64,000 bases of DNA from a virus (IMGVR_UViG_3300042485_001470:1-64000); one strand, 5' to 3'; shown: positions 5,405-30,638, counted from the first letter of the stretch. Notes: generated from the sequence alone by a model not told the origin. A program made the numbers and translations.

Positions 5405-5787
5405 TGAGTAGAGTAGTTCCAAATATTAATATAGATACCACACAAAAGTTGAGGGATAGAGCCGGATTTAAAGAATTTGTATTAAGAGTTAATACAGATA
5501 CCTTTACATATTCACATAAACCAAATACTATTTCTTTGGAAAATCAAACATTTTTCACACTAACTTTAGAAAATAAAAGATTTATTTTTGATATATTAGA
5601 AGTTGATGATGTCACAGACTATGTTGATGTATATTTATTTGGAGTAAAACAACCACAAGATAGATATAATGTTGAAGTTGTTGGAAATAATATAATTGTT
5701 ACATTCACCGCTGATATTACAAGGTTACCAAATCAGGTATCGGCTGCAGATTTTGAAATAAAAGGTAAAATAGTAGAAATAGTATAA
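5404..5787 (+). CDS. Small protein with the same beta domain
   Basis: This 127-residue protein has an N-terminal segment with 'NTDTFTYSHKPNTISLEN' and a C-terminal part VDVYLFGVKQPQDRYNVEV...IIVTFT...FEIKGKIVEI. That C-terminal part is a third, more diverged copy of the domain at the ends of the two preceding genes. Both ends overlap neighbours by one base (TAATG), so it is translated as part of the neck block. A structural role is inferred from context only. Confidence 0.75.
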   Translation: MSRVVPNINIDTTQKLRDRAGFKEFVLRVNTDTFTYSHKPNTISLENQTFFTLTLENKRFIFDILEVDDVTDYVDVYLFGVKQPQDRYNVEVVGNNIIVTFTADITRLPNQVSAADFEIKGKIVEIV

Positions 5788-11700: not shown

Positions 11701-14700
11701 CACAATTGATTAAGAACACTACCAATTTAGTTAAGGTAACAAACTCTACACAATATATTGGACCGGCTGCAGTTTCTGCATCTAAAGTTAATAGTATTAC
11801 TGGAAGTTTTGATACTATTATAAGAATATTGGAAAATGGATTGGGTAGTTCTCCTGTAATTTTAAACAATAATAATGCAAATATAAAAGTTACGGGTACT
11901 ACTAACTATGTATCATCATCATACAATGGTACACAAACACAAGCATCATTTATATCAGCATCTATTTCGATAGTTACTAATATAATTGCAAATGGAAGTG
12001 GCAGTTTACCAACTATAACTCTCTATACATCATCATTATCATCATCCGCTGTTTTAGATGCGTATAACATATTAAAGAATCATATACCATTTATTCAGGA
12101 TGAAACTATTGCTTACTTAAGTTCTTCTTGGAGTACGGCATCTTATGATGAACAAAAATGTAGACGTGATGTTGGATTGATTATAAGCGGTGCAGCTGAA
12201 GACCTTTTATGGAATTCTAATTCATCATCAATAGTGAATGGTAAGTTCTACTATGAGTATCCATCACAAGCACAGGGTGCACAATTGAATCAAACATTAG
12301 ATGGTGTAATTTACGCAAGTAGATTGGCACAAAAAATAGTATTGAATACACAATTTGCTTTACCAACATCTCAATCCAATTTGGCTTATGATTTGTTAGT
12401 ACAAAACAAGCAACTTATTCAAAATGAAACTATTGCTTACATTAGTTCTTCTTGGAGTACACATCAATATAATGAGATAACTTGTAAAAGAGATGTAGGA
12501 TATATTTTAGATGCGGTGGCAACTGATATTAAGTGGGGTGGTAACGAAAGAAGTGTAAAAGCTGGGCAATTCTACTACCTATACCCATCTGCAGCAACTG
12601 GTTCTCAAATAGAAGAAACTGTAACTGGTATAACTTACGCAAAGAATCTATCTGATAGAATCCTAAGACGATTAATATTACAATCAGTTTCTCAAAATAA
12701 ATTACAAGCTAAGCAACTTATTTTCAATAACAAAGAATTTATACAAAACGAAGTTATTGAGTATGTATCAGCTAGTTGGAACGGATTCCTATACAATGAA
12801 GATACTTGTAAGAGAGATGTAGGATTCATTTTAGATGCAGTGGTAACTGATGTGGTCTATGGTGGAAATGAGAGAGCCTTAGAAGCTGGAAGATATTATT
12901 ACCTATATCCATCTGAAGCAACTACAACTCAATTAGGTCCAACCCTGAGCGGTATTAGACATGCAAAGGGAATGGTTGAAGAAGTATTGAATAATTCAGT
13001 ATTTGTAACCGCATCTAATTCAGCACAAACGGCTTACAATTTATTATTAGACAACAAACAATTAATACAAAACGAAACAATCGCATTTGTAAGTTCTTCT
13101 TGGAGTATGTTCAATTACAACGAAGCAAGTTGTAGTAGAGATACTGGATACATTGTAGATGCAGTAGCAACTGATATTCTTTATGGTGGAAACGAAAGAG
13201 TAAGAGAAGCGGGTGAGTATTATTACTTATATCCATCGTTGGCAACGGTTGATGGTGATGGAGATGCGGCTGGGCAATTAGGACAAACTTTAGATGGTGT
13301 AAACTACGCTAAAGGAATTTCTAAAAAGATAGTATCAAACATCTTATTACAATCAGCAAGTATTTCTGAATTAACTGGTTGGAGTTTATTAAGACAAAAT
13401 AAACCATTAATTCAAAAAGAAACTATTGCTTATTTAAGTTCATCTTGGACTGGAGTTGATGGTTTCTATTATAACGAAGCAAGTTGTAGTAGAGATGTTG
13501 CTTACATCATTGATAATGTAGCAACTGATTTATTATATGGTGGAAACGAAAGAAGTTCTAAAGCTGGAGAATACTATTTCTTATATCCTTCAAAAGCAAC
13601 GGTTGGTGGAGTACCATCGATTAATGCACAATTGGAACAAACTGTACAAGGTATTAGATTTGCAGCAGGAACTGCACAAAATGTGTTATCAAATACATTA
13701 TTAGAACAACCTACGCAATTCGTATCATCTTCAGTAAGTTTATTGAGAAGTAATAGAGGATTTATCCAAAATGAAACTATACAATATATAGATGCATTCT
13801 TCCCTAGCTTAGTTTACAATAGAGAAAAATGTAGAAGGGATGTTGGATACATTATTGATAACGTATCTACTGATTTATGGTATGGTGGAAATGAGAGAAG
13901 TATTATAGCTGGTGATTACTATTATCGTTACCCATCTTTAGCAACTAAGCAAGAGCAAGTAAGAGAAACTGTAGCTGGTGTTGAATACGCAAAAGCAGTA
14001 TCAAAAGCAATTGTACAAAATGTATTATTACAAACTCCATCTTTGGTTTCAAATACTGATGGTAATATTAAAGTAGGTAATGTAGCACAAATAACATCAT
14101 CGTTATCAGCTACAAATACTCAAATATCAAATATTAGTTCATCTTTCTCAACCGTAACAAAAATTATTGAAGGTGGTTTGGGTGTGTTACCAACTATTGT
14201 TTCTAATAACGAAGGTTTAATAAAAGTAACAAACGAAACACAAATAACATCATCAATATCAGCATCATCTGCTGAAGTTGGTGTTGTAACAGCATCATTT
14301 GGATTGATTAGAGATATAATCTATTGGGGTTCTGCTTCATTACCGGATTCATTAGCTAATAACTTCCAATATGGATTTAATAATAGTGTACCAACATTAT
14401 TGCGTATTTCTTCATTCACTCAAACATTAGGAAGTGGTGAATATAATGCACAAACTTCAAGCGTAAGTTCTTCATTTGGTAATGTGATTAATGTTATCAA
14501 CAACGGAACGGCTTCATTACCAACATTAGAAGCTAATACATCGGCAAGTGTAAGTGTAAGTGGTATTACTACATTCAAATCAACAACATCTGGTTCTGAA
14601 TATCAAAAAAGTAGAATTGGAAACTTATTTGGTGTTGTTATGAATATAGTTGAGAGTGGTAAAAGTTCTATACCTGTATTATTATCAAATACATCAGCTA

Positions 14701-17700
14701 GTATTAAAGTAACAAATACTCCACAAATTATTAGTGGTAGTGGTAGTGATAGATTGCAAGCAAGATTAGTATCATCATCATTTGGTATTGTAATAGATTC
14801 ATTATTAAATAATGGTACTAGCTCAATTGCTTATGTTGGACCAACTGGAATTAATACAAATGCAAAAATAACATCTGCATATAATTTGTTATTAAATAAC
14901 CAACAAATGATTATAGATGAAACTATAACTTATATGAGTTCGTCTTGGAGTGGATTTAATTACACTCAATCATTATGTGAAAGAGATTTAGGATTGATTA
15001 TTAGTGGAGCAGCATTTGATTTATTGTGGGGTGGTAATTCGGCATCATTAGTAAATGGTAAATATTACTTTGAATCAGCATCACAAGCTACTGGTTCACA
15101 ATTAGACCAAACAATTACAGCAATTAGATATGCTGGTGGAATTATTGAAAAGGTTGTTAGAAATACACCATTGGTACATATTTCAGCATCATTACAAACA
15201 TCAGCATCTTATACATCATTAATTAAGAACAAAGGATTCATACAATCTGAATCAATTGCTTATGTGAGTTCTTCTTGGGAAGGATTTATGTATGATGAAA
15301 TTAAATGTGCTAGAGATATTGGTTATATTGTAGATGCGGTAGCAACCGATTTACTATATGGTGGAAATGAGAGAAGTATTGTAGCTGGAAGATATTATTA
15401 TGACTTCCCATCACAAGCTACTTCAACTCAATTAGAACCTACATTGACTGGTGTAAGATACGCTAAAGGAACGGCAATGAATGTTGTTGTTAATAAACAA
15501 TTCTTCTCACCAAACTCAAATAACCAAACTGCTTATAACTTAATCAAAGATAATAAGGAGTTCATTCAGGAAGAAACTGTAGCATTTGTAAACGCTAAAT
15601 ACCCTGAATTGGATTACATCGAATCTAAGTGTAGGAGAGATGTAGGATTTATTGTAGATGCGGTAGCAACTGACCTTCTTTATGGTGGAAATGAAAGAAG
15701 TAACAAAGCTGGTGAGTTCTATTACTTATATCCATCTTTAGCAACTGAAAATGAGCAAGTAGTTGAAACAACAACTGCGGTTGATTATGCTAGAAGATTA
15801 ACACAAAATATTATTAATAGTGTAGTAATACCTACACCACAAATAATATCTAATACTCAAAATAGTATTAAGGTAACAAATACACCTCAATATTTGAGTT
15901 CATCATTTAGTGGTAGTGTATATGAAGCATCATTGGTATCAGCATCAATTTCAATTGTAACAAATATTGTAGCAAATGGTATTGGTGTAGCAGGAAGTCC
16001 TGTAAATTATACAACACCATCAACTGCATCAAACGTTTGGTACGCTTACAACTTATTAAAAGAGAATATCGGATTCATCCAAAACGAAACTATTGCATAC
16101 ATTAGTTCTTCTTGGAGTACGGCATCTTATGATGAGGCTAAATGTAAGAGAGATGTTGGTTTAATTATTAGTGGTGCGGCTGAAGATATGTTATTTGGTG
16201 TAGATTCTGCATCGATTGTAAATGGTAAGTTCTATTTCGAATCAGCATCACAAGCAACTGGTGACCAATTAAATTATACATTGGATGGATTGTTTTACGC
16301 AAGTAGATTAGCACAAAAAGTGGTTAGAAACGTAGAATTTGTGACAGCATCTTTATTAGTATCTGCATCTTACGCATTGATGAGAAATAATAAATTATTT
16401 ATCCAATCGGAATCCGTAGAATATGTTGATTCTTCTTGGGTTGGATTGGATTATAATAAAGAAAAGTGTAGAAGGGATGTTGGTCATTTAATTGATGCAG
16501 TTTCAACTGACCTTTTATATGGTGGAAACGAAAGAAGTGCGATAGCTGGGGAATACTATTTCAAATACCCATCAGAAGCTACAACGGGTTCTCAATTAGA
16601 CCCAACGGTAGATGCTATTGATTACGCAAGTGGTTTAGCAACTAAAGTAATTCAAAGTTTAACATTTGTAACCGCTTCTCAAATAGTATCGGCATCGGTT
16701 GGATTGTTGAGAGGAAATAGAAACTTCATACAGGAAGAAACAATGGCATACTTAACTGCTAGTTGGAGTACTTTTGATTATGATAAAGTAAAATGTAGAA
16801 GGGATGTTGGATACATCATTGATGGTGTAGCAACTGATTTACTATATGGTGGAAACGAAAGAAGTGTAATGAGTGGTGAGTTCTATTATAGATACCCATC
16901 AAAGGCAATACTATTGGGTGATGGTGATGGAGCTGGACAATTAAAACAAACTGTTGATGGTATAAACTACGCAAGTAGAGTAGCACAAAAAGTTGTTAAG
17001 AATATTGAATTCATAACCGCATCATTACAAGCTTCAGCATCATTTGATTTATTGAGAAAAAATAAATCATTTATAGCAGCGGAAACAATAGCTTATGTAT
17101 CTTCATCTTGGAGTACTGTTTATTATAATCAAGCTTCTTGTTCTCGTGATGTTGGATACCTAATAGATGCAGCAGCAACTGATGTACTTTATGGTGGTAA
17201 AGAAAGAAGCGTAATAGCAGGAAACTTCTATTATCTATTCCCATCTAAAGCAACAAATGCTGGAGTACCTTCTGAACAAAATCAATTAGACCCTACAATT
17301 ACTGGTGTACGATATGCTGGAAGATTGGCAACTAAAGTTGTAGTAAATCCAAAATTTGTAGAAGCTTCTGGTTCTGCAATTGGTGGTAGTAAGTTACTAC
17401 AATTAAATAAATCTTTAATTCAAAAAGAAACTATAACATTCTTAAGTTCTTCTTGGAGTACTTTACAATACAACGAAGCAAGTTGTTCTCGTGACGTAGG
17501 ATTTATTATAGATGCGGTTAGAACTGACTTAGTTTATGGTGGTAATGAAAGAAGTATTGAAGCAGGTTCATACTACTACAAAATTCCTTCGGTAGCAATT
17601 AAAGAATCTTATACTGATAACGGTGGTGTTGGACAGAAAAAACAAACTGTTGATGGTGTAAACTACGCAGGAGGTATATCTGAAAAGATTGTAGCACAAA

Positions 17701-18341
17701 AACAATTGTTAAGACCTGGTACCAAACGAATTGAAGCTACTAATAGATTAAGAGGAGCTAAAGAGGAATTAAAACAAAGAGCAATTGGATACACAAACGG
17801 AGCATTCCCTTACTTAGTTTATAACGAAGCAAGTTGTTCTCGTGATACCGGATTAATTGTGGATGCTTGTTGTACTGATTTATTCTATGGTGGAAACGAA
17901 AGAGCAATCGCAGCAGCATCATCATATTATACAGGACAATACGGAAATGCAGATGAGGTAATATTTAAACAAAGACTAGAAACTCTTGAAACTAATAGAT
18001 ATTTAAGAACTAGAGCAGAGTTTATAGCAGCTGGAGCACCTGTTGAATCATTTGGTTCTCTAATTGTGGCAACTGGTATTGACTACTCTTATAATGGTAG
18101 TGGTGTGACATTTAAAGCACTTCCTCCAAATCAGGGTGGTAGTGGTGTTGCTAATCCAGCATTTGAAATTACCGAATTGGGTGGTGGTAGAATCTTCTTT
18201 ACCTCTGGTAACCAAGATGGTGACTTTAGAATTGGTACTGGTTTAAGTATTAATCAGGCAACTGGTACTCTTGTGGGTAGAACATTTAGTAAATCTCTAT
18301 TCTCATTAGTAACTCCGTTCTCATTGGCACTACAAATATAA
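5787..18341 (+). CDS. Giant virion protein (4184 aa): beta-helix head plus 22 repeated modules
   Basis: This is the largest gene of the window. Residues 1-75 are a fibre-type leader with SGSLFVS repeats. Residues ~85-400 look like a pectin-lyase-like right-handed beta-helix: YVSSTDGDDTNDGRT, PLRTIKRAA, GTYLEDNPVILPSNTTIWGAG and SGSGGNIDARN are typical of that fold in marine phages. Residues ~625-730 form a cupredoxin-like domain with lost copper ligands (Tyr666, Ala714, Thr717; Met720 kept). From about residue 750 on, 22 copies of a ~100-residue module follow (FIQNETIAYLSSSW, a C-x-R-D Cys, DAVATDLLYGGNERS, FYYLYPS-x-AT), separated by stretches of IIxxGTxxLPTLVxNT repeats. A 125-residue non-repetitive C-terminus ends the protein. 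It starts inside a TAATG overlap with the small gene upstream. It is probably an extended tail or baseplate adhesin. No catalytic residues could be assigned to the beta-helix. Confidence 0.85.
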   Translation: MARLIPRKQIEEQQNISSSFSVGQDLTVGRDVVISGSLFVSQSFFMGNDTGSRNELTGSVFLTGSLTIDGDLFVGAPDTVLSIKASGSLISDDTQRYAGILAKDFGANLPTLYVSSTDGDDTNDGRTIQYPLRTIKRAAQLASPGYDGRYGFDTGSVSNGYVIKVQAGTYLEDNPVILPSNTTIWGAGLRITKINAKNPTEDLFHVNSGCYIAEVTMGGLRLFPDQINPEKGFAVAFQPGAFITTSPYTQNCSQISNQENSFTELYEEIPPGGGGLYVNGDVIHPDSPLASMVLDAYTQISPNGVGCLVNGRGFIQLVSFFTNFSYYAIRVNNGGHATLNNSNISFGLYGMYASGSRFISGSGGNIDARNRVRGSWSVVVDVLNRGLSALPEITTLNTAEGIRATSLSQYPQLYLSGSEISLTPTTQNIEEVQSDFKLVSAIVENGTSDFPTLLARSSNKGYGFESPYNILGAEQITSSIASASAEILTDISESFGAILSIFANGTGSFNFVSNTKNAIKATQLEPTAIGMSVSNSITASVSSSFETVISIISSGLTAVPKVTSSNEAAIKVSGVEQFTTGLSSSLQTTNSVSASFSIIYNILDKGTGSVILPIPQNHQKNYTITNNNSSSYQWQGVGSNPTITLYRGETYKFYVSASSVFGGINYPFFIRTKPVSGISEQFDYDKGVVNNGDSVGNITFTVPYDAPNELYYVAQNTDNMAGKFHIINNSATPFDLISNTLTYPQTISGSTESTSNIDKLNAYELLIGNKSFIEEETIQFVSSSWSDFEYVESTCRRDIGFLIDAVANDLIYGGNNNSITAGRFYYEYPSTATTTQKDPTKTAVKYAAGMVQKILKGVTFVEPNNERDAVATAIQANREFIQTETITFLSSSWSNFYYNEAKCKRDVGYILDAVATDARYGGNERSVQAGQFYYLYPSLAVVDGDGDSEGQLGQTLDGVRFAAGNTNNIVAGITHQTASLNVRESYRLLRENKELIQNETIQFINVAYPQLKYNQDKCKRDVGYIIDAISTDLLYGGIERSVTAGKYYYEYPSQATKTQKVETSGGIRYAKIISDFIVQNIVLETPRIITNDEKLIKVVSGSSNITSSFSGTINEQNSISSSFAIIEGIIKRGTAAVPSILAQNSDLNWSVGLPLSVTGQTQITNSFVSPTEVEKLGNGFDVVTSILQNNGAEPVLTSSVEGQIKVTNNEQITGSLSNSYTSSISASFGYVVEIISGGLSKLDTIVSNASASIKVTTTPQWTSGVVGTNSQTASISSSFGSIINVIVSGTAALPTLVQNTNTNRKVTSTPQFISASYSGSLEDIAFVSQSISKVTQIVETGNVDLFAKTNYSATIAARVGVYEILKQNIPFIQNETIAYLSSSWAGFQYDEVKCKRDIGLIVSGAAEDLLFGANSASIVNGQFYYEFPSLATIGNDGDTGGQLNQTLDGINYASRLAQKVITQGITFSLPSTEVSASNALLFNNKEFIQNETIAYLSSSWSGFDYNETTCKRDVGYIIDAVRTDLVYGGNERSRQAGLYYFLYPSQATGSQLLQTTDGIKYASQISQKIISGSIFQSADSDKLEVSRLMRLNKGLIADEVVEYVSSSWSQVSYNEAKCKRDVGYIIDAVRTDLVYGGNERTSNAGEFYYRFPSSATVGGEPSATQQLDPTVTGVEYANRLAQNIVQNKVLVNPSTEVLAAAQLVRTNRTFLQQNVIQFISQNYPNLDYIVSKCFRDVGFITDGAVTDLVYGGNERSINSGRFYFKFASKATGDQLVETVAGINFAKDLAKLVAIGGKAVEDGYDNVSKIIASGSSSAPTLITNTENAIRKTVEQQFTSSQSVQSSDRQLVSASFANVITIISNGTGSIPTIVESSNRGILVTSGSYQITSSITPSTIDINKVVSGFDIVTNIIENGTGSLPTLVKNTQNNIKRTDSIQFTSTASISNTIISSSNTAFDNVLLIVSEGTGSTPQLIKNTTNLVKVTNSTQYIGPAAVSASKVNSITGSFDTIIRILENGLGSSPVILNNNNANIKVTGTTNYVSSSYNGTQTQASFISASISIVTNIIANGSGSLPTITLYTSSLSSSAVLDAYNILKNHIPFIQDETIAYLSSSWSTASYDEQKCRRDVGLIISGAAEDLLWNSNSSSIVNGKFYYEYPSQAQGAQLNQTLDGVIYASRLAQKIVLNTQFALPTSQSNLAYDLLVQNKQLIQNETIAYISSSWSTHQYNEITCKRDVGYILDAVATDIKWGGNERSVKAGQFYYLYPSAATGSQIEETVTGITYAKNLSDRILRRLILQSVSQNKLQAKQLIFNNKEFIQNEVIEYVSASWNGFLYNEDTCKRDVGFILDAVVTDVVYGGNERALEAGRYYYLYPSEATTTQLGPTLSGIRHAKGMVEEVLNNSVFVTASNSAQTAYNLLLDNKQLIQNETIAFVSSSWSMFNYNEASCSRDTGYIVDAVATDILYGGNERVREAGEYYYLYPSLATVDGDGDAAGQLGQTLDGVNYAKGISKKIVSNILLQSASISELTGWSLLRQNKPLIQKETIAYLSSSWTGVDGFYYNEASCSRDVAYIIDNVATDLLYGGNERSSKAGEYYFLYPSKATVGGVPSINAQLEQTVQGIRFAAGTAQNVLSNTLLEQPTQFVSSSVSLLRSNRGFIQNETIQYIDAFFPSLVYNREKCRRDVGYIIDNVSTDLWYGGNERSIIAGDYYYRYPSLATKQEQVRETVAGVEYAKAVSKAIVQNVLLQTPSLVSNTDGNIKVGNVAQITSSLSATNTQISNISSSFSTVTKIIEGGLGVLPTIVSNNEGLIKVTNETQITSSISASSAEVGVVTASFGLIRDIIYWGSASLPDSLANNFQYGFNNSVPTLLRISSFTQTLGSGEYNAQTSSVSSSFGNVINVINNGTASLPTLEANTSASVSVSGITTFKSTTSGSEYQKSRIGNLFGVVMNIVESGKSSIPVLLSNTSASIKVTNTPQIISGSGSDRLQARLVSSSFGIVIDSLLNNGTSSIAYVGPTGINTNAKITSAYNLLLNNQQMIIDETITYMSSSWSGFNYTQSLCERDLGLIISGAAFDLLWGGNSASLVNGKYYFESASQATGSQLDQTITAIRYAGGIIEKVVRNTPLVHISASLQTSASYTSLIKNKGFIQSESIAYVSSSWEGFMYDEIKCARDIGYIVDAVATDLLYGGNERSIVAGRYYYDFPSQATSTQLEPTLTGVRYAKGTAMNVVVNKQFFSPNSNNQTAYNLIKDNKEFIQEETVAFVNAKYPELDYIESKCRRDVGFIVDAVATDLLYGGNERSNKAGEFYYLYPSLATENEQVVETTTAVDYARRLTQNIINSVVIPTPQIISNTQNSIKVTNTPQYLSSSFSGSVYEASLVSASISIVTNIVANGIGVAGSPVNYTTPSTASNVWYAYNLLKENIGFIQNETIAYISSSWSTASYDEAKCKRDVGLIISGAAEDMLFGVDSASIVNGKFYFESASQATGDQLNYTLDGLFYASRLAQKVVRNVEFVTASLLVSASYALMRNNKLFIQSESVEYVDSSWVGLDYNKEKCRRDVGHLIDAVSTDLLYGGNERSAIAGEYYFKYPSEATTGSQLDPTVDAIDYASGLATKVIQSLTFVTASQIVSASVGLLRGNRNFIQEETMAYLTASWSTFDYDKVKCRRDVGYIIDGVATDLLYGGNERSVMSGEFYYRYPSKAILLGDGDGAGQLKQTVDGINYASRVAQKVVKNIEFITASLQASASFDLLRKNKSFIAAETIAYVSSSWSTVYYNQASCSRDVGYLIDAAATDVLYGGKERSVIAGNFYYLFPSKATNAGVPSEQNQLDPTITGVRYAGRLATKVVVNPKFVEASGSAIGGSKLLQLNKSLIQKETITFLSSSWSTLQYNEASCSRDVGFIIDAVRTDLVYGGNERSIEAGSYYYKIPSVAIKESYTDNGGVGQKKQTVDGVNYAGGISEKIVAQKQLLRPGTKRIEATNRLRGAKEELKQRAIGYTNGAFPYLVYNEASCSRDTGLIVDACCTDLFYGGNERAIAAASSYYTGQYGNADEVIFKQRLETLETNRYLRTRAEFIAAGAPVESFGSLIVATGIDYSYNGSGVTFKALPPNQGGSGVANPAFEITELGGGRIFFTSGNQDGDFRIGTGLSINQATGTLVGRTFSKSLFSLVTPFSLALQI
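8041..17960 (+). repeat. Array of 22 C-x-R-D / YGGNERS protein modules
   Basis: Inside the 4184-residue gene, 22 modules share NKxFIQNETIAYLSSSWSxF, then a C-x-R-D-V-G-Y-I motif, DLLYGGNERS, an aromatic FYYLYPS and a Q-L-x-x-T-x-x-G-I-x-Y-A helix. They occur in groups of 3, 4, 6, 3 and 6. The first module of groups two to five is a distinct variant with GLIISGAAEDLL and SIVNG. Each module has one Cys at the same place (the last has extra Cys). Confidence 0.85.
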
Positions 18342-19358: not shown

Positions 19359-22300
19359 ATGGCAATTAGTAATCTATTAACAGGAAGGGTAAGGGTAGTT
19401 TCACCTAAAAATGTAACATCGGAAAGGTATCAGTTTTTGGATTTATCCCAAGCTGAACCAAATTTAGGTGTCCCAAATTTCTCCGCATCACTTTCTGGTT
19501 CTCCAGCTATTGTAGTATCGGATGACCAGGGTAATAGAGCATTTGTACGAAGTTTGGACTTAGATAGAGCAACTGGAGCATTTACAGGCTCATTTACTGG
19601 TTCATTTACTGGTTCTTATTTTGGAGATGGTTCTCAATTATTTAATTTACCTGGAGCAACATTTATAGCAAGTGGTTCGGCAACAGCATCATTTCAACAA
19701 GGTGATTTATTAATTAACACAAACACTAGAGTTCAGGGTGACCTTTACGTTGATGATACAATTTATGCAGAAAGTTTAATTGTAAGTTATATATCATCTT
19801 CGGTAATATATTCATCTGGTTCAAACGTTTTTGGTGATAATTATAATGATACGCAACAATTTACTGGTTCTGTATTAGTTAGTTCATCTATTATTGTAAA
19901 TGATATAACTGCATCTCAATCAATTAGTGGTTCATTCACGGGTTCTTTCTTTGGAGATGGTAGAGATATATTCAATTTACCACAAGCTACTAGATTAGTA
20001 ACAGGTTCGGTAACGGCATCAGTAACACCCGAAGATGGATTTAAAGTAGTTTCAATTGATAGTGGTTCAACTTTTACTGGTTCTCTTTTTGTAAGTGGAA
20101 ATATGACCATACCGTCTGGTAGTGGTTTCTTTAGTGGTAGTGGTGAGGGATTATTCAATATTCCATTATCTGCACTTAATATAGACTCATTAGTAGCTAG
20201 TAGAATTGCAAGTGGTAGCGTTACGGCATCAGTTTCTCCAACCGAAGGATTTAAAGTATTATCGGTTGCAAGTGGTTCAACTTTCACTGGTTCTCTTTTT
20301 GTAAGTGGAAACGTTGTAATACCATCTGGTAGTGGATTCTTTAGTGGTAGTGGTGAAGGATTATTTAACATACCTTTATCTGCACTTAATATTGATTCGT
20401 TGGTATCAACTGAATTGGCAAGTGGTAGTGTAACGGCATCCGTTTCACCTGTATTTGGTTTTAGAGTTGCATCACAAGAAAGTGGTTCTCAATTTACTGG
20501 TTCGATTAATATAAGTGGAAGTTTATTTGTAAGTCCTTTTAGTGGTTCACTACAATTAGCATCTGGTTCAAATTACTATGGTGAGGGACAGTATTTAAGA
20601 AACATACCTCGTTCGGCATTAACTGAAGATGCATTAATATCAAATGAAATTAAATCTGGTTCGATAACGGCATCGGTATCTCCTGATTTTGGATTTAAAG
20701 TACAAACTCCATTTACAGGCTCACAAATTGGTTCTCAATTCACTGGAAGTGTTGATGTAAGTGGAAGTGTTAAAGCATTTACATTTATTGGAGATGGTTC
20801 TCAATTAACAAATGTACAAGCAGCAGCTGCACCTAGAATAGAATCTGGTTCGGTAACTGCGTCTGTTTCACCTAATTTTGGATTTAGAGTAGAATCTGCA
20901 CAAAGCGGTTCTGAATTTACGGGTTCAATTGAAGTAAGTGGTTCTATATTCTTAAATTCGGGTTCTTTTTATTCTGGTAGTGGTGAAAGATTATTTAATA
21001 TACCAAGAGCAGCTTTAACACCAGACGCTTTGTTGAGTGTTGAGATTAAAAGTGGTAGTGTAACTGCATCGGTTTCTCCTCAATTTGGATTTAGAGTTGA
21101 ATCTGCGGATAGTGGTTCTGAATTTACTGGTAGTGTTGATATAAGCGGTTCTATATTCTTAAACTCTGGGTCTTTTTATTCTGGTAGTGGTAGGGGATTA
21201 TTTGATATACCTCGTTCAGCACTTGCTCCTGATGCACTTATATCAAATTTAATTGCAAGTGGTTCGGTTACTGCATCAGTAACTCCTGATTTCGGATTTA
21301 CAGTAGATTCATTAGAAAGTGGTTCTAGATTTACAGGTTCTCTTTTTGTAAGTGGAAATATTGAAATTCTTACTGGTTCATTTAGTGGTAGTGGTAAGAA
21401 TTTAAGAGAAATTCCATTAACAGCTATACCTGATTTAGACCTTTCAAAAATTGGTAGTGGTTCGGTAACAGCATCGATTAGACCTAATGAAGGATTTAGA
21501 GTAAATACATTCTCTACATTTACTGGTAGTATGCTAATATCGGCATCGGCTATATATCTACCAAGCGAATCAATACAAACTGTATTTAACGTAACTAATA
21601 GTGGAATTAGTCAGTATGTTTTTAGCGGAGCAGCTATTGGTACTAACCCAACATTAACTTTAGTAAGAGGTATTACTTATACCTTTAACGTAAATGCACC
21701 TGGTCATCCATTTTGGATTAAAACAATACAAACAACTGGTACTGGAGATGCATATAGTACTGGTGTAACAAATAATGGTGATGATGTTGGTGTAATTACA
21801 TTTACACCAGCCAACGATTCACCATCACGATTATATTATATTTGTCAAAATCATTCAGCGATGAATGGTGTGATTGATATAGTAGATGGTATATTACAAA
21901 GAGGTCCTGATGTTACAATTAGTGGTAGTTTATTCGTAAGTGATAGAATTGTAGCAAGAGAAGTAACGGCATCAATAAGTGCATCTTATATTCAAGGTGA
22001 TGGTGCTGGATTATTTAATATACCACGTTCGGCATTCACTGGTGATTCATTTAGAATCGCATCTGGTTCTGTAACTGCATCTGTTTCTCCTGTATTTGGA
22101 TTTAAAGTAGAATCTACTGAAAGAGGTTCTGAACTTTCTGGAAGTGTTAAAGTAAGTGGTTCAATCGTTGCATCATCTGTAACGGCTGTATCAATGAGTG
22201 CATTTGATATAAGTGGTTCTTTCCAGGGTGATGGTAGTAGATTAACCAATATTGTAATTCCACCATTGGAAACTACACAAATAGCTAGTGGTTCGGTAAC

Positions 22301-25300
22301 CGCATCGGCTATACCTGATAAAGGATTTGTTGTATTTTCACCAACCAATGGTTCACAATTTACAGGTTCTATTTTTATAAGTGGTAGTAGAGGTGTTGAA
22401 CTTACGTCTGGTTCATCTTTTAGTGGTAGTGGTGCTAGGTTATTCGATATTCCTAGAACTGCATTGGCGCCGGACGCATTGGATACAAATAGAATTCTTT
22501 CTGGTTCGGTAACAGCATCGGTAACTCCTGATTTTGGATTTAGAGTTCAATCAACTGAAAAGGGTTCACAATTTAGTGGTTCATTATTCCTAAGTGGGTC
22601 TGTATTTTTAAGAACTGGTTCATTTAGTGGTAGTGGTAGACAATTATTTGATATACCAGTAGCTGCACTTTCTGATTTAGATACATCAAAAATATTTAGT
22701 GGTTCTGTAACTGCATCTGTATCTCCAAACTTTGGATTTGTAGTAACATCAGTAGCAAGCGGTTCTACAATTAACGGAAGTTTAGTAGTAAGTGGAAGTA
22801 CTAGATTTAGAATGGGAGTATCCGCATCAGTATTTAGTGGTAGTGGTGCTGGTTTAACCGATATTCCATTTTCAGCACTTTCTCAAGAATTATTTAGAAT
22901 CGCAAGTGGTTCTGTAACAGCTTCGGCATTGCCTGATAGAGGTTTTGTAGTTGAATCTGAATTGGTAGGTTCTGAATTTACTGGTAGTGTTGATATAAGT
23001 GGTAGTTTAATAATAACGGCAACTTCAGGCGCATTGGTATTAGGTTCATCATCCGCATACTATGGTGAAGGTACTTATTTAAGAAATATTCCTAGAAATG
23101 CTCTTAGTGAAGATGCATTAATATCAACTGAAATCAAATCAGGTTCAGTAACGGCATCGGTATCACCTAACTTTGGATTTGTAGTAAAATCGGCAGAAAG
23201 CGGTTCTGAATTTACTGGTTCGATTGATGTAAGTGGAAGTGTAACTGTAAAGAGTGGTTCATTCTTTATTGGTGATGGTAGATTCCTTAACAATATTACA
23301 CTTGCTAACTTAGCAATTGATTCAACAAAAATATTTAGTGGAAGTGCAACTGCATCAATATCACCGAGCGAAGGATTTAAAGTAAATACTCATTCTAGAT
23401 TTGATGGTAGTTTTATAGTATCATCATCAACAAGACCTACTCCTGATTATTTGTTAAATACTACATTTTTAGTAACAAATGATGGAAGTAGTGCTTATAA
23501 TATAAGTGATACAATAATAAGTGGTTCTAATCCAACAATAACTTTAGTAAAAGGAGTAACTTATACTTTCAATGTAAATGCATCTGGACATCCATTCTAC
23601 ATTAAGACAGTAAATTCAATTGGAACTGCAAACGCATATAATACTGGTGTAACAAATAATGGTGATGATGTTGGGGTAATAATTTTTACACCACCATCTG
23701 ATGCACCTAACGTATTATATTATAACTGCCAACTACATTCATCTATGTTTGGTGTGATTAATATAGTTGATGAAATCACAACACCAGCAACAATCCAATT
23801 TATTGGAAATACTAAAATAGAAGGTAATTTAACGGCATCTATGTTTAGCGGTAGTGGTAGAGGGTTATTTGATATACCTCGTTCTGCCATAACAGAAGAT
23901 TCGGTTAGAATAGCAAGTGGTAGTGTAACTGCGTCTGTATCACCTGAAAGTGGATTTTTAGTTGAGTCTGTTATTAGTGGTTCTACGTTTAGTGGTAGTG
24001 TTGTTGTATCGGGTAGTATGTTCTTGAACTTTACGTCTGGTGCACTTTATATAGATTCATCCTCTGGACTTTATTCGGATGGACAATTCTTAAGAAACAT
24101 ACCTAGGTCAGCATTAACTGAAGATGCGTTAATATCTACTGAAATTAAGAGCGGTAGCGTAACAGCATCAGTAGCACCTGATTATGGATTTAGAGTAATA
24201 ACCGATTCAACTTCATCAATTGATGAATTTGGTGTATATACTACACAAATTGGTTCTAGATTTACTGGTAGTGTTGATGTAAGTGGTAGTTTATTTATAA
24301 ATGAAGTTAGTGGAGCAATATATTTACAATCATCTTCAAATTATTATGGTGAAGGTAGGTATCTAAGAAATATACCTAGGTCAGCACTAACGGAAGATGC
24401 ACTTATTAGTACTGAAATAAAATCAGGTTCAGTAACCGCATCGGTAACACCTGATGAAGGATTTAGAGTTATTACTGATAGAACTGGTTCACAAATTGGT
24501 TCTCAATTTACTGGTTCTGTTAATATAAGTGGTTCTCTTATTTCAGATGATGTAACTGCTAGAGGGTTCTTCTTTGGAGATGGTAGATTTATTACCAATG
24601 TACAAGCGGCAGCAGCACCTTTAATAGCTAGTGGTTCAGCAACCGCATCAGTAGCAAGTGGAGAATCATTTGTAGTAATAACCTCAAAAACAGGTTCGCA
24701 AATTGGTTCTGAATTTACTGGTTCGATTGGAGTAAGTGGTTCGGTTTCCGCATTTGATGTAACATCAACTGGATTCTTTTTTGGTGATGGTAGATTTATC
24801 ACTAATGTAGTAGCAACCGCAGCACCATTCATAGCTAGTGGTTCAGCAACGGCATCGGTAGCAAACGGATTTGATTTTAGAGTAATAACTGCAGCAACTG
24901 GTTCGGAAGTTGGTTCTGAATTTACTGGTTCGGTTTCTGTAAGTGGTTCATTGACCGCTGATGATTTAACGGCAAGAGGATTCCTTTTTGGTGATGGTAG
25001 ATTCATTACCAATGTACAAGCAGCAGCAGCTCCGTTGATAGCAAGTGGTTCGGCAACTGCATCCGTACAAAGCGGTGATACTTTTAGAGTAGTAACTGCA
25101 CCTTTATCTGGTTCATATCGTTCTCAATTCACATCATCCGTAGCAATTAGTGGTTCAATAACTGCATCTATTTACTTTGGTGATGGTGGCGGATTATTTA
25201 ACATTCCACCTGATGCGATTGAAAATTTAGAGTTAGCTAAAATTAACTCTGGGTCTGGATTTGCACAAATTGACCCTACTAAGTTAGAAGTAAACGTACC

Positions 25301-28300
25301 AATAACAGCATCTCGTTACGATGGAGATGGTAGTGGATTATTTAACATTCCACCTGAAGCGTTGGATGACCTTAAGATTGATAGAATTCAATCTGGTTCG
25401 TTTGAAGCCGTAATTTCTCCAAATAGAGGATTGGAAATTGGAACTAGAACATTCGTGTCTGGTAACTTAAGTGTTAGTGGTGGATTATTTGTGACTGGTG
25501 GAAATGTAACTGTATCTTCTGGTTCATCGTTTATTGGTGATGGTAGTGGTTTGACAAATATTAATATTGCAAACTTATCATTTGAAACATCTTTATTACA
25601 ATCAGGTTCGGCAATAGCTAGAATATCTCCAAATTTTGGATTTGTAGTAAATACATCATCTTTGATTGATGGTAATTTAGTAGTATCAAATAAAATAACT
25701 GCAAGTAATTTAATATTTGCACCATTATTTACTGGTTCTTTCTTAGGTACTTATAATTTCCAAGGAGTAGGTCCTACCGCATCCGCAGAATATGATATTT
25801 TAAGATTTGATACTGATAGAGGATATTTTGTACCTCAACCTGAAACATCATTAACTGAAACTGTATCATTCAATAGTGTAAGCGATTTAACTATCGTACA
25901 CAACTTGGGAATTAGATACCCAATGGTACAGGTATATGCAACTGGTTCTGAAGACCAATTATTGCCTGGTCAAATTATTTCAATTGATGATGACACAATC
26001 CAAATTAAATTTGCTGGATTAACATCTGGACATGTTGTAATTGGTAGTGGTGGTTCTCTAATTAATGGAACAATAAATGGTGATAGAGTATTTGGACCAG
26101 TACTATCAGCATCTTATGCAGTAACTGCGGAATTTGCAAAAACTGTAGCTGGATTTGATTCGGCATCATTAGCAAATTTATCAGCATCATTGAGTGATAC
26201 TGCTCAATATGTAAGAAATAATCAAACATCATCAATGTCTGTATTTAGTGCAGTAAGTTCTTCTTACGCATTAACTGCATCTTATATTGAAAATTTAAGT
26301 GGATTAAATCTAACTGATTATGTAAGAAATGATAGAACATCATCAATGACAGTTTTATCAGCATCATTCGCTAGAACGGCATCTTACGCATTATTCGCAC
26401 AAAATGCATCAAATGTAGATACAACAAACTTTGTTCAGAATTCACAAACTGCATCAATGTTGGTTGGTACTGCTTCATTAGCATATACTGCATCTTACGC
26501 TCTTTACGCTCTAAATGCGGAAGGAGTAAATACGGCATCATTCTTACAAGTAAATAAAGACAGTAGTATTAACGCAAACTTAACTGTTAGTGGAAGTTTG
26601 GGAGTTAGTGGTAGTTTATTATTACAAAGTTTACAAACTGGTTCATCCGAAGATGTTGTAATTTGGAATAGTGTAACAAAGAAATTAGAAAGAAGAAATA
26701 TAGTAGCGGCAGTTGGTTCTTCTGGAACTGGTGGTACTTCTGGGTTAGATGGTACTGCTGGTTCATCTGGTTCTTCTGGAACTAGCGGAACATCTGGTTC
26801 TTCTGGAACAAGTGGTACTTCTGGTTCTGCTGGAAGTAGTGGAAGTAGTGGTACAAGCGGACAAGATGGTTCTTCTGGTTCTTCTGGAAGTAGCGGTAGT
26901 AGTGGTTCGAGTGGTAGCAGTGGTTCTTCTGGAAGTAGTGGAAGTAGTGGTTCAAGCGGTAGCAGTGGAACAAGCGGTAGTAGTGGAACGAGTGGTAGTA
27001 GTGGAACGAGTGGTACAACTGGTTCAAGTGGTACTTCTGGTAGCAGTGGTACTTCTGGTAGTAGTGGTTCAAGCGGTTCGAGTGGTAGCAGTGGTTCAAG
27101 CGGTACTACTGGGTCATCTGGCTCTTCTGGTTCATCAGGAAGTAGTGGAAGTAGTGGAAGTTCTGGAACAAGCGGTACATCTGGTACATCTGGTACATCA
27201 GGAACGTCTGGCACATCGGGAACTTCTGGAACATCTGGTTCAAGTGGAAGTGGTGGTTCATCGGGAACTTCTGGTACAAGCGGAACATCAGGAACATCAG
27301 GCTCTTCTGGTTCATCCGGCTCATCTGGTAGTGGTGGAACTTCTGGTAGTGGTGGAACAAGTGGTTCATCTGGAAGTGGTGGCACAAGCGGAAGCGGTGG
27401 AACATCAGGAACTTCTGGTACAAGCGGAAGTGGCGGAACTTCTGGTTCAAGCGGAAGTGGAGGAACTTCTGGTAGTGGTGGAACGACTGGTTCTGCTGGT
27501 ACATCAGGAACTTCTGGGTCTTCAGCAACAGCTGGTACTGGTGGTACATCTGGTACTTCTGGAACAAGCGGAACTTCTGGAACAAGCGGAAGTGGAGGTA
27601 CATCGGGCACAAGCGGAAGTGGTGGTACATCGGGTACTTCTGGTAGTGATGGTTTGAGTGGAACTTCGGGAACTTCTGGTACGTCTGGTACAAGTGGTAG
27701 TGGTGGTACATCGGGAACTTCTGGTACAAGTGGCACAACGGGCTCGGCAGGTACATCAGGAACTTCTGGTTCATCTGGAAGTAGTGGTACATCGGGTACA
27801 AGTGGTGAAGATGGAACTTCTGGAACTAGTGGAAGTAGTGGAAGTAGTGGAACATCAGGTACAACAGGTAGTAGCGGAACTTCTGGTTCTTCTGGAACAT
27901 CTGGGTCATCTGGAAGTAGTGGTTCTTCTGGAAGTAGTGGTACTTCTGGTACTACGGGTTCAAGCGGTACTTCTGGAACTAGCGGTACGTCTGGTACAAG
28001 CGGAACGGATGGTACAAGTGGTACATCTGGGTCAAGCGGTAGTAGTGGTACTTCTGGTACAACAGGTTCATCTGGGTCAAGCGGTAGCAGCGGTACATCG
28101 GGTACAAGCGGAACGGATGGTACAAGTGGTACATCTGGTTCTGCTGGAAGTAGTGGAACATCCGGAACAAATGGTTCGGCTGGAACATCAGGTTCGTCTG
28201 GTTCAAGTGGTACATCTGGAACTGATGGTACAAGTGGTTCAAGTGGTTCTTCGGGAACTTCTGGTTCAACTGGAACTGATGGAACTTCTGGAACAACAGG

Positions 28301-30638
28301 TTCTGATGGAACTTCTGGAACAAGTGGTTCTGATGGTAGCAGTGGAACAAGCGGAACTTCTGGAACAAGCGGAACTTCTGGTTCAACTGGAACTGATGGA
28401 ACTTCTGGAACAACAGGTTCTTCTGGAACTTCGGGAATAGATGGTACATCTGGAAGTAGTGGTACAAATGGAACTACTGGTACTGCTGGTAGTAGTGGTA
28501 CAAGTGGTACGCAAGGAACGTCTGGTTCTGATGGTACTTCTGGTTCATCTGGAACAAGTGGTTTGGATGGTACATATTTTGGTAGTAGTGGAACAAGCGG
28601 AAGTTCAGGAAGTAGTGGTACTTCAGGCACAAGCGGTACTTCAGGAACAAGCGGAACTTCTGGATTGGATGGAACTTTCTTTGGTAGTAGTGGTACTTCT
28701 GGTAGTGAAGGTTCTTCTGGAACTTCTGGTAGTGGAGGTTCTTCTGGAACTTCTGGTTCAACTGGTACTGGAGGAACTTCGGGAACAACTGGTACATCTG
28801 GTTCTTCTGGATTAAATGGTACATTCTTTGGTACAAACGGAACAAGCGGAACTTCTGGGACAAGTGGAACAAGTGGTTCATCGGGTTCAACTGGTACAGC
28901 TGGTTCATCGGGTACTTCTGGTATATCTGGTAGTTCTGGATTGGATGGAACGTTCTTTGGTTCTTCTGGAACGTCAGGAACTTCTGGTTCTAATGGAACT
29001 TCTGGTTCAACTGGTACTGCTGGTTCAAGCGGAAGTAGTGGTACATCTGGTACTTCTGGATTGGATGGAACTTTCTTCGGTTCAAGTGGAAGTAGTGGTA
29101 GTGCTGGTTCATCAGGAACTTCTGGTGCTGGTTCAAGTGGTAGCAGTGGTTCTTCTGGAAGTAGTGGTACAAGTGGTTTAGATGGTACATTATTTGGTTC
29201 AAGCGGAAGTAGTGGTTCATCGGGAACTTCTGGAGCCGGAACTTCTGGTAGTAGTGGTAGTACGGGTTCGTCTGGTTCAGCTGGTACTTCTGGTTTAGAT
29301 GGTACATTCTTTGGAAGTAGTGGTACAAGTGGATTGTCTGGTACTAATGGAAGTACAGGAACTGCTGGTTCTTCTGGTACTTCTGGTATTAGTGGTACAA
29401 ATGGTACTTCTGGAACTTCTGGTTTTGATGGTACATTCTTTGGAAGTAGTGGTACATCGGGTAGTTCTGGAACAAGCGGAACTTCTGGTTCAACTGGTAC
29501 TGATGGTACAACAGGTTCAGCAGGTACTTCTGGTATTTCTGGAACAAGTGGATTTGACGGTACATTCTTTGGTTCATCAGGAACTTCTGGTACTTCTGGT
29601 ACTTCTGGTTCAACTGGTACTGCTGGTTCTTCTGGTTCAACTGGTACTGATGGTACTTCTGGTATTTCTGGAACAAGTGGATTTGACGGTACATATTTTG
29701 GTTCGTCTGGAACATCAGGAACTTCTGGTTCTAATGGAACTTCTGGTTCAACTGGTACTGATGGAACTTCTGGTTCAACTGGTACAAATGGAACAAGTGG
29801 AAGTAGCGGTTTAAATGGTACATTCTTTGGAAGTAGTGGTACTAGTGGAGCTAATGGTTCTACTGGAGTAGCTGGTACTTCTGGTACTTCTGGTACAACA
29901 CCTCCAAACTTTACGTCTGGAACTTCTGGAAGTGGAGGTACATCCGGCATAACAGGAACTTCTGGTACTTCTGGTACAACACCTCCAAACTTTACATCTG
30001 GAACAAGTGGAAGTTCCGGACAAACTGGTACTTCTGGTACTTCTGGTACAACTCCGCCTAACTTTACATCTGGAACAAGTGGAAGTGGTGGCACATCAGG
30101 ACAAACTGGTACATCAGGAACTTCTGGTACAACACCTCCAAACTTTACGTCTGGAACTTCTGGTACAAATGGATTTAGTTTAAATGGTACAACCAATAAT
30201 GGATTACTTACATATCAAGATGTTCCTGTTGCGGCTTTTGTTGAAAGTAATTTAACATTTGATGGTACTACTTTATCCATAACAGGAAACATAGTATCTT
30301 CTACACATATAACTTCAACTACATTTAGAGAAACTTATATTGATTTAGGAACTGGAACAAGCGCAACATTAGACCTATCAACAGCAAATAATTTTAGAAG
30401 ACAATTTAGTGGTACATCTACATTAACATTCTCAAACCCACCTGCCTCAAATGCATTTGGATTTACATTTACAATGATAAACGCTGGTGGTTATTCAATA
30501 ACTTGGCCTGCTAGTGTAGATTGGGTTAATGGAAGTGCTCCAATATTAACATCAATTGGTACTGATGTATTATCATTCTTTACATTTAATGGTGGTACAA
30601 CTTATTACGGATTTGTAGTTGGAAAAAATATGAGTTAA
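19359..30638 (+). CDS. Giant tail fibre (3759 aa) with two cupredoxin domains and Gly-Ser/Thr triplets
   Basis: The N-terminus (ISNLLTGRVRVVSPKN, RYQFLDLSQAEPNLG) resembles a recurrent marine myophage fibre start, presumably the baseplate anchor. Residues ~80-2100 are about 25 copies of a beta module with SGSVTASVSPxFGF, SGSxFTGS and FxGDGxxLxNIP. Two cupredoxin-like domains interrupt them (residues ~738-845 and ~1363-1475) with complete type 1 copper ligands: His783, Cys829, His832, Met835 and His1411, Cys1457, His1460, Met1463. After a spacer with TASYAL repeats, residues ~2455-3600 are Gly-x-y triplets of Ser and Thr, punctuated eleven times by GLDGTFFG-like steps and ending in four TTPPNFTSG units. 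The last ~160 residues are a non-repetitive beta-rich tip (TIDLG..., then FSNPPASNAFGFTFTMINAGG). It is likely a long adhesive fibre. The 3690-nt antisense open frame over the triplets is a composition artefact. Confidence 0.85.
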   Translation: MAISNLLTGRVRVVSPKNVTSERYQFLDLSQAEPNLGVPNFSASLSGSPAIVVSDDQGNRAFVRSLDLDRATGAFTGSFTGSFTGSYFGDGSQLFNLPGATFIASGSATASFQQGDLLINTNTRVQGDLYVDDTIYAESLIVSYISSSVIYSSGSNVFGDNYNDTQQFTGSVLVSSSIIVNDITASQSISGSFTGSFFGDGRDIFNLPQATRLVTGSVTASVTPEDGFKVVSIDSGSTFTGSLFVSGNMTIPSGSGFFSGSGEGLFNIPLSALNIDSLVASRIASGSVTASVSPTEGFKVLSVASGSTFTGSLFVSGNVVIPSGSGFFSGSGEGLFNIPLSALNIDSLVSTELASGSVTASVSPVFGFRVASQESGSQFTGSINISGSLFVSPFSGSLQLASGSNYYGEGQYLRNIPRSALTEDALISNEIKSGSITASVSPDFGFKVQTPFTGSQIGSQFTGSVDVSGSVKAFTFIGDGSQLTNVQAAAAPRIESGSVTASVSPNFGFRVESAQSGSEFTGSIEVSGSIFLNSGSFYSGSGERLFNIPRAALTPDALLSVEIKSGSVTASVSPQFGFRVESADSGSEFTGSVDISGSIFLNSGSFYSGSGRGLFDIPRSALAPDALISNLIASGSVTASVTPDFGFTVDSLESGSRFTGSLFVSGNIEILTGSFSGSGKNLREIPLTAIPDLDLSKIGSGSVTASIRPNEGFRVNTFSTFTGSMLISASAIYLPSESIQTVFNVTNSGISQYVFSGAAIGTNPTLTLVRGITYTFNVNAPGHPFWIKTIQTTGTGDAYSTGVTNNGDDVGVITFTPANDSPSRLYYICQNHSAMNGVIDIVDGILQRGPDVTISGSLFVSDRIVAREVTASISASYIQGDGAGLFNIPRSAFTGDSFRIASGSVTASVSPVFGFKVESTERGSELSGSVKVSGSIVASSVTAVSMSAFDISGSFQGDGSRLTNIVIPPLETTQIASGSVTASAIPDKGFVVFSPTNGSQFTGSIFISGSRGVELTSGSSFSGSGARLFDIPRTALAPDALDTNRILSGSVTASVTPDFGFRVQSTEKGSQFSGSLFLSGSVFLRTGSFSGSGRQLFDIPVAALSDLDTSKIFSGSVTASVSPNFGFVVTSVASGSTINGSLVVSGSTRFRMGVSASVFSGSGAGLTDIPFSALSQELFRIASGSVTASALPDRGFVVESELVGSEFTGSVDISGSLIITATSGALVLGSSSAYYGEGTYLRNIPRNALSEDALISTEIKSGSVTASVSPNFGFVVKSAESGSEFTGSIDVSGSVTVKSGSFFIGDGRFLNNITLANLAIDSTKIFSGSATASISPSEGFKVNTHSRFDGSFIVSSSTRPTPDYLLNTTFLVTNDGSSAYNISDTIISGSNPTITLVKGVTYTFNVNASGHPFYIKTVNSIGTANAYNTGVTNNGDDVGVIIFTPPSDAPNVLYYNCQLHSSMFGVINIVDEITTPATIQFIGNTKIEGNLTASMFSGSGRGLFDIPRSAITEDSVRIASGSVTASVSPESGFLVESVISGSTFSGSVVVSGSMFLNFTSGALYIDSSSGLYSDGQFLRNIPRSALTEDALISTEIKSGSVTASVAPDYGFRVITDSTSSIDEFGVYTTQIGSRFTGSVDVSGSLFINEVSGAIYLQSSSNYYGEGRYLRNIPRSALTEDALISTEIKSGSVTASVTPDEGFRVITDRTGSQIGSQFTGSVNISGSLISDDVTARGFFFGDGRFITNVQAAAAPLIASGSATASVASGESFVVITSKTGSQIGSEFTGSIGVSGSVSAFDVTSTGFFFGDGRFITNVVATAAPFIASGSATASVANGFDFRVITAATGSEVGSEFTGSVSVSGSLTADDLTARGFLFGDGRFITNVQAAAAPLIASGSATASVQSGDTFRVVTAPLSGSYRSQFTSSVAISGSITASIYFGDGGGLFNIPPDAIENLELAKINSGSGFAQIDPTKLEVNVPITASRYDGDGSGLFNIPPEALDDLKIDRIQSGSFEAVISPNRGLEIGTRTFVSGNLSVSGGLFVTGGNVTVSSGSSFIGDGSGLTNINIANLSFETSLLQSGSAIARISPNFGFVVNTSSLIDGNLVVSNKITASNLIFAPLFTGSFLGTYNFQGVGPTASAEYDILRFDTDRGYFVPQPETSLTETVSFNSVSDLTIVHNLGIRYPMVQVYATGSEDQLLPGQIISIDDDTIQIKFAGLTSGHVVIGSGGSLINGTINGDRVFGPVLSASYAVTAEFAKTVAGFDSASLANLSASLSDTAQYVRNNQTSSMSVFSAVSSSYALTASYIENLSGLNLTDYVRNDRTSSMTVLSASFARTASYALFAQNASNVDTTNFVQNSQTASMLVGTASLAYTASYALYALNAEGVNTASFLQVNKDSSINANLTVSGSLGVSGSLLLQSLQTGSSEDVVIWNSVTKKLERRNIVAAVGSSGTGGTSGLDGTAGSSGSSGTSGTSGSSGTSGTSGSAGSSGSSGTSGQDGSSGSSGSSGSSGSSGSSGSSGSSGSSGSSGSSGTSGSSGTSGSSGTSGTTGSSGTSGSSGTSGSSGSSGSSGSSGSSGTTGSSGSSGSSGSSGSSGSSGTSGTSGTSGTSGTSGTSGTSGTSGSSGSGGSSGTSGTSGTSGTSGSSGSSGSSGSGGTSGSGGTSGSSGSGGTSGSGGTSGTSGTSGSGGTSGSSGSGGTSGSGGTTGSAGTSGTSGSSATAGTGGTSGTSGTSGTSGTSGSGGTSGTSGSGGTSGTSGSDGLSGTSGTSGTSGTSGSGGTSGTSGTSGTTGSAGTSGTSGSSGSSGTSGTSGEDGTSGTSGSSGSSGTSGTTGSSGTSGSSGTSGSSGSSGSSGSSGTSGTTGSSGTSGTSGTSGTSGTDGTSGTSGSSGSSGTSGTTGSSGSSGSSGTSGTSGTDGTSGTSGSAGSSGTSGTNGSAGTSGSSGSSGTSGTDGTSGSSGSSGTSGSTGTDGTSGTTGSDGTSGTSGSDGSSGTSGTSGTSGTSGSTGTDGTSGTTGSSGTSGIDGTSGSSGTNGTTGTAGSSGTSGTQGTSGSDGTSGSSGTSGLDGTYFGSSGTSGSSGSSGTSGTSGTSGTSGTSGLDGTFFGSSGTSGSEGSSGTSGSGGSSGTSGSTGTGGTSGTTGTSGSSGLNGTFFGTNGTSGTSGTSGTSGSSGSTGTAGSSGTSGISGSSGLDGTFFGSSGTSGTSGSNGTSGSTGTAGSSGSSGTSGTSGLDGTFFGSSGSSGSAGSSGTSGAGSSGSSGSSGSSGTSGLDGTLFGSSGSSGSSGTSGAGTSGSSGSTGSSGSAGTSGLDGTFFGSSGTSGLSGTNGSTGTAGSSGTSGISGTNGTSGTSGFDGTFFGSSGTSGSSGTSGTSGSTGTDGTTGSAGTSGISGTSGFDGTFFGSSGTSGTSGTSGSTGTAGSSGSTGTDGTSGISGTSGFDGTYFGSSGTSGTSGSNGTSGSTGTDGTSGSTGTNGTSGSSGLNGTFFGSSGTSGANGSTGVAGTSGTSGTTPPNFTSGTSGSGGTSGITGTSGTSGTTPPNFTSGTSGSSGQTGTSGTSGTTPPNFTSGTSGSGGTSGQTGTSGTSGTTPPNFTSGTSGTNGFSLNGTTNNGLLTYQDVPVAAFVESNLTFDGTTLSITGNIVSSTHITSTTFRETYIDLGTGTSATLDLSTANNFRRQFSGTSTLTFSNPPASNAFGFTFTMINAGGYSITWPASVDWVNGSAPILTSIGTDVLSFFTFNGGTTYYGFVVGKNMS
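19580..25660 (+). repeat. VTASVSP / GDG fibre module array (about 25 copies)
   Basis: Tandem beta modules of roughly 60-100 residues carry an SGSVTASVSP-type strand, a FTGSxxVSGS strand and a FxGDGxxLFNIP or SGSGxxLFNIP turn. About 22 copies are clear and three are degenerate. One copy also occurs near the start of the 2770-residue fibre (33000-33060), showing shared ancestry. Confidence 0.8.
26716..30170 (+). repeat. Gly-Ser/Thr triplet region (collagen-like period, no proline)
   Basis: About 1150 codons follow a strict Gly-x-y period in which x and y are almost only Ser or Thr, with rare Asp, Ala, Asn. Eleven GLDGTFFG-type interruptions occur between about 28559 and 29830, and four TTPPNFTSG units end the tract. 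At the DNA level it is a degenerate GGTNCN-rich repeat prone to recombination and misassembly. Confidence 0.85.

Follow-up and report, generated by a model that had tools for sequence, protein, structure and literature searches.

Two predicted cupredoxin domains with a type 1 copper ligand set in the shaft of a phage fibre-like protein

The window analysed here comprises 64,000 nucleotides from the start of a virus record of 95 kb (IMGVR_UViG_3300042485_001470), which belongs to a freshwater phage. It carries on its plus strand one uninterrupted reading frame of 3759 aa (19359-30638), encoding a fibre-like virion protein which is composed of ~69-aa SGS shaft repeats, two cupredoxin-like domains and a long collagen-like region. 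Judging from sequence comparison and structure models, both domains are probably true cupredoxins that possess every ligand of a type 1 copper site, arranged as lateral beads on the shaft of a phage fibre. The cupredoxin fold and its site are known already; their placement in virions appears to be undescribed, as far as the open literature shows.

Domain 1 (aa 736-845, 21564-21893, +) and domain 2 (aa 1364-1473, 23448-23777, +) each consist of ~110 aa and are ~65% identical. The predicted N-terminal His ligand is located within a GHPF motif, His783 in domain 1 (21705-21707, +) and His1411 in domain 2 (23589-23591, +). It is followed by the predicted ligand loop Cys829-x2-His832-x2-Met835 (21843-21863, +) and Cys1457-x2-His1460-x2-Met1463 (23727-23747, +), respectively, resulting in the pattern His-46-Cys-x2-His-x2-Met in both domains. 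Cys829 and Cys1457 are the sole cysteines among the 3759 residues of the fibre. These motifs had been noticed in an earlier annotation made from the DNA alone (the sequence-only reading), and a direct count gave exactly its residue numbers and coordinates as well as the equal His-Cys spacing of 46. C-x2-H-x2-M is the loop length of amicyanin. The likeness to amicyanin claimed in that reading recurs in our searches, where amicyanin (TIGR02657) is the commonest NCBIfam match in the set, weak as it is (6/25, best E 0.01), and where engineered amicyanin-loop proteins are found among the structural matches (pseudoazurin 2ux6, CuA 5u7n).

The fold of domain 1 was predicted with AlphaFold2 from 37 aligned sequences of the window and of viruses. 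The model is an all-beta sandwich with a mean pLDDT (predicted local distance difference test) of 96.5 and a pTM (predicted template modelling score) of 0.88. Its strands comprise residues 7-13, 17-22, 31-34, 39-44, 51-53, 75-80, 89-93 and 101-107 in domain 1 numbering. His48 is located in the loop following strand 39-44, Cys94 directly past strand 89-93, and His97 and Met100 in the loop preceding the last strand. In the model, the positions of the ligand residues relative to the strands match the topology of the cupredoxin site. A Foldseek search of the Protein Data Bank (PDB) with domain 1 returned cupredoxins as nearly all top matches (E 4e-5 to 1e-3), including rusticyanin, three-domain copper nitrite reductase (CuNiR), plastocyanins and pseudoazurin. 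The structure prediction thus turned out as the sequence-only reading had anticipated, and a cupredoxin fold of domain 1, i.e. a Greek-key beta-sandwich of the blue-copper type, is supported by these models. The TM-scores obtained with solved cupredoxins are no more than moderate (0.45-0.62), and we therefore place the domain on a separate branch of this fold. On the level of sequence, a PDB search with one domain resulted in noise alone, such as ankyrin repeats. A profile search of the PDB gave a weak match (E 0.17) to the copper protein 9cck, which is listed as a nitrite reductase and is described by the fold library as a multicopper oxidase that ends in a cupredoxin domain.

Family profiles show a similar, distant relationship. 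PF00127 (Copper-bind, plastocyanin/azurin) does not match domains 1 and 2, is matched by two of the 37 relatives (best E 0.0017) and was found nowhere in the 95-kb record when a gene of the plastocyanin family was sought. Profile alignment using hhalign to a PF00127 protein of an acidobacterial genome (L296) is nearly full-length with a single-comparison E of 3e-4 and pairs the first His, the Cys and the second His of the domain with their counterparts in that protein. The best Pfam match of many members is PF25489 (At5g54830-like), which is found for 22/37 aligned domains at E<=1 (best 6e-7), domain 1 not being among them; in scans of single relatives it reaches 13.6-19.4 bits compared with a curated cut-off of 27 bits.

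To a large extent the case for a metal site is based on the behaviour of the ligands across the family. Domains were gathered from viral contigs, phage records and bacterial and archaeal genomes and reduced at 85% identity. All four ligands (His/Cys/His/Met) are kept in 118/125 non-redundant domains. Some of the scan patterns contained ligand residues; one scan used only patterns located between the ligands, and here 47 of 49 non-redundant domains keep the complete set, the remaining two (QSQM, HSNM) having lost both Cys and the second His. Ligand-column conservation among domains that were selected for having all four ligands would be a circular argument and was not used; we relied on the overall counts and on the coupled loss described below. 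An apparent ICHM variant in L090 proved to be a misaligned partial match with HPL present and was excluded from the counts.

The Cys is lost in six domains, together with the second His in five of them and alone in one (HDHM), while the second His is never lost alone (Fisher p 2.6e-8, kinship ignored). Coupled losses are found on separate branches of the tree among intact relatives, e.g. L271 (QSSM) beside the intact L291 with support 99/83. As deep forks are poorly resolved, the number of independent loss events is approximate. The columns of Pro49, Phe50, Gly72, Tyr92 and Gly102 stay in ligand-less copies. Cys codons vary synonymously (68 TGT, 49 TGC) and His codons are a mixture of CAT and CAC; the residues themselves are fixed.

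The same genome holds further copies. The sequence-only reading had correctly placed two copies in the fibre and overlooked a third one in the window (7641-7970, +), which is part of a 4184-aa virion structural, short-tail-fibre-like protein (5787-18341, +). In copy 3 His, Cys and His are replaced by Tyr, Ala and Thr, and Met is retained. Its model is confident (pLDDT 89.4) and the best PDB matches are again cupredoxins, whereby the alignment used included intact relatives. Copy 3 would hence represent a natural apo control, in which the ligands were lost as a set with the predicted fold intact. A fourth copy is located outside the window (record position 94510-94842) in a collagen-containing protein (L299:12962-15079, record 92962-95079). 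Of its ligands, the first His is present, the second His and Met are missing, and the alignment places the Cys one column away. That the ligands are unnecessary for a beta-sandwich, as had been argued from the sequence, agrees with ligand-less paralogues of the kind of copy 3, for which a cupredoxin fold is still predicted. The fold can thus do without the ligands, which are nevertheless retained together, and a metal site explains this best. Ligands behaving as a set with a fold independent of them are the signature of such a site, and this is well supported by the alignments and models.

The domain is widespread in phages. By tblastn, 335/50,697 phage records match it, nearly all of them Synechococcus and Prochlorococcus phages, so the search of other phages suggested by the sequence-only reading was productive. 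All 16 non-redundant domains from phage records retain the four ligands. The pairing of two such domains is seen again in many independent viral contigs. The gp9 baseplate wedge-tail fibre connector of T4-like cyanophages ends in the domain, with His/Cys/His/Met for example in S-SM1 and syn9. As these connectors combine it with the PF07880 (gp9/10) N-terminus in the same protein, the domain can be placed in virions. It is also found at the C-terminus of a subtilase (S8, by Pfam) of S-H9-1 (L127:1345-3348), an architecture of protease and metal domain, likewise at the C-terminus of an S-CAM4 protein (L126:1276-3324), within a collagen-containing fibre-like protein of P-SSM2 and in the T7-like podoviruses P-SCSP2 and P-GSP1. 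Among the predicted viral structures of BFVD a "T4-like proximal tail fiber" has a similar domain. The same database holds Pithovirus/Marseillevirus "beta-sandwich" proteins (124-169 aa; A0A481Z6J5, A0A481YVH3) for which a comparable domain is predicted.

Stand-alone cellular forms follow a signal peptide or lipoprotein signal (assigned by eye) in Acidobacteria (L098), Methylotenera (L114) and Flavobacteriaceae (L117). Bacteroidota proteins, mostly flavobacterial, carry the domain at the C-terminus (L095-L097, L103, L107, L109, L111-L113, L115), and CHRD domains are present in the two that were scanned (L096, L113). Lipoproteins of Flavobacteria likewise combine it with CHRD. Moreover, a ~430-aa protein of marine Alphaproteobacteria contains the domain. 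Based on these comparisons, one family appears to be common to secreted stand-alone bacterial cupredoxin-like proteins and to cyanophage virion proteins (fibres, gp9 connector, subtilase-type). As viral and cellular members are intermixed in the tree, repeated exchange between viruses and cells, in one direction or the other, is likely.

Within the fibre, the shaft array makes up the N-terminal half. It comprises about 20 repeats of 66-91 aa (19671-25403, +, end approximate) of the type SGSVTAS...FTGS...GLFNIP with the consensus SGSVTAS..FGF.V.S..FTGS..VSGS....GLFNIP. Two units reach 202 and 193 aa, each owing to one inserted cupredoxin domain, and the insertion point is identical in both, between the FTGS and the GLFNIP segment. 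It is this shared position which suggests that the domains sit like beads along the repetitive shaft. The collagen-like region (GSSGTSG..., 26715-30149, +, approximate limits) comes after the shaft repeats. Antisense to it a 1230-aa open frame is found (26504-30196, -), which is probably a by-product of repeat codons and not a gene.

That the reading frame represents a tail fibre is suggested by its collagen and SGS repeats, PHROG matches, a downstream assembly-like gene and the genes of a contractile tail. The PHROG tail-fibre matches are mostly located in the collagen-like part and are largely to low-complexity repeats. Just downstream, a tail-fibre assembly or chaperone-like protein is encoded (31554-31997, +; PHROG 4912, 8716). 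The presence of a tail sheath gene (42011-44338, +; PHROG 23, E 5e-68) indicates a phage with a contractile tail.

Several points weigh against this interpretation of the two domains. The TM-scores are moderate, Pfam gives nothing for domain 1 and no curated family scores above its cut-off for this domain. One variant (L041) lacks Cys alone. Met persists in 5/6 of the ligand-less copies and hence is not a clean ligand marker; it must be at least partly structural, with a role in packing. The intact type 1 ligand set claimed in the sequence-only reading consequently stands on conservation, coupled loss and the His/Cys/His alignment to the PF00127 protein, Met being weaker evidence than had been claimed. 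Finally, zinc could occupy the same ligands and is the main chemical rival. Chance does not explain the finding, since the domain is conserved across hundreds of viral contigs and the 335 phage records and folds confidently. An assembly artefact, by which a secreted host protein was wrongly joined to the fibre, could draw on the closest cellular domains, which are 50-58% similar to the family query, about like many phage ones. Recurrence in many viral contigs, the uninterrupted frame and the fact that domains 1 and 2 form separate clades, each across several viruses, rule out such a chimaera, and its probability is practically nil.

We consider it quite likely that the predicted site binds a metal, and copper is probably the native one. 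The contrary assumption, that the ligand residues are retained for packing or by recent ancestry in a beta-sandwich display unit free of metal, agrees with the ligand-less copies of the same genome, whose predicted fold holds so that some virions use it metal-free, and with Met being kept when the other ligands are gone. Yet Cys and the second His go together rather than singly, codons vary synonymously around fixed residues, and fold residues remain where the ligands disappear, whereas packing residues would not act as a set; we thus regard the metal-free explanation as unlikely. Somewhat less improbable, though still not expected, is a natively zinc or mixed Zn/Cu structural site that is loaded as the fibre folds in the cytosol and serves stability only. 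His2Cys with a weak fourth ligand is able to hold zinc, blue copper proteins produced in bacterial cytosol are often recovered zinc-bound, and the domain is placed in a shaft where stability matters. In contrast, the C-x2-H-x2-M loop with a distant His is the type 1 copper arrangement, copper proteins are the best fold matches, and the signals for secretion or lipidation of the stand-alone relatives point to a setting in which the usual cupredoxin metal is copper. Even lower is the probability we assign to a working redox or docking module which exchanges electrons with the host surface, scavenges oxidants or docks to a host copper or electron-transfer protein. The ligand set is that of electron-transfer proteins, most phage carriers infect oxygenic cyanobacteria, and such a module would transfer to copper the "Trojan horse" idea put forward for iron in tail fibres (PMC11705849). 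However, relatives are also found in non-photosynthetic Flavobacteria and Alphaproteobacteria, and neither a partner nor an acceptor of electrons is apparent, which makes electron transfer less likely.

In the account we favour, a domain of the secreted cupredoxin type would have been co-opted as a side module of virion attachment proteins and loaded with metal, most likely copper. Since free copper is scarce in the cytosol, loading would probably take place once the phage has been released into oxygenated water, or else at the cell surface. Bound metal could then rigidify the ligand loop and a hydrophobic face that contacts the host surface or a neighbouring baseplate-fibre subunit. We tentatively suggest that the domain is a display or adhesion module in which the metal stiffens the contact loop and face and does not serve an electron-transfer chain. 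The recurrence of the domain in fibres and at the baseplate-fibre joint favours such a loop-stabilising role, as does the fact that some copies dropped the site and kept the fold. It is conceivable, if still short of probable, that a large proportion of cyanophages, along with related freshwater viruses, build copper cupredoxin centres into host-contacting parts of the virion (fibre shaft, gp9 connector, subtilase-type proteins), with adsorption or stability depending on copper.

The likeness to blue copper proteins (plastocyanin/azurin of PF00127, amicyanin TIGR02657, pseudoazurin) comprises the predicted fold, the His...Cys-x2-His-x2-Met order and loop, and the aligned ligand columns. PF00127-type proteins are free periplasmic or lumenal electron carriers, whereas the phage domain is part of a giant virion fibre, scores under the PF00127 cut-off and has a Gly/Asn-rich GVTNNGxxxG segment typical of its family. 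The PF25489 domain mentioned above is named after a plant protein. Within phages, the gp9 connector of T4-like cyanophages (PHROG 677) shares this cupredoxin domain and its full ligand set; it is a short baseplate protein with one copy at the C-terminus, in contrast to two copies inserted in the shaft of a 3759-aa fibre. In T4 gp37 and further tail fibres, iron is carried by HxH motifs, the nearest precedent for metal in a phage fibre, and a route to host metal receptors was proposed for such fibres (PMC11705849). Those sites are octahedral, bind iron by His only and are structurally unrelated to the cupredoxin site.

The open literature yielded no description of cupredoxin domains in virions, preprints and most subscription journals being outside the scope of the search. 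Queries for cupredoxin in cyanophages gave a Borg paper alone, those for blue copper or cupredoxin in phage tails nothing relevant by title or abstract. Virus particles may hence carry bound metal in a previously undescribed way. If the sites hold copper, blue-copper centres would be structural parts of viruses, namely of the attachment machinery with which phages infect the main photosynthetic organisms of the ocean. Phage adsorption would then be tied to copper chemistry, phage particles would act as a copper ligand in water, and unannotated domains in several hundred phage records would be accounted for. The ligand-less natural paralogues represent ready-made controls. Apart from the fibre, the phage genome encodes a protein matching DruA (PF14236, a Druantia component; L299:4725-5936, E 5e-19).

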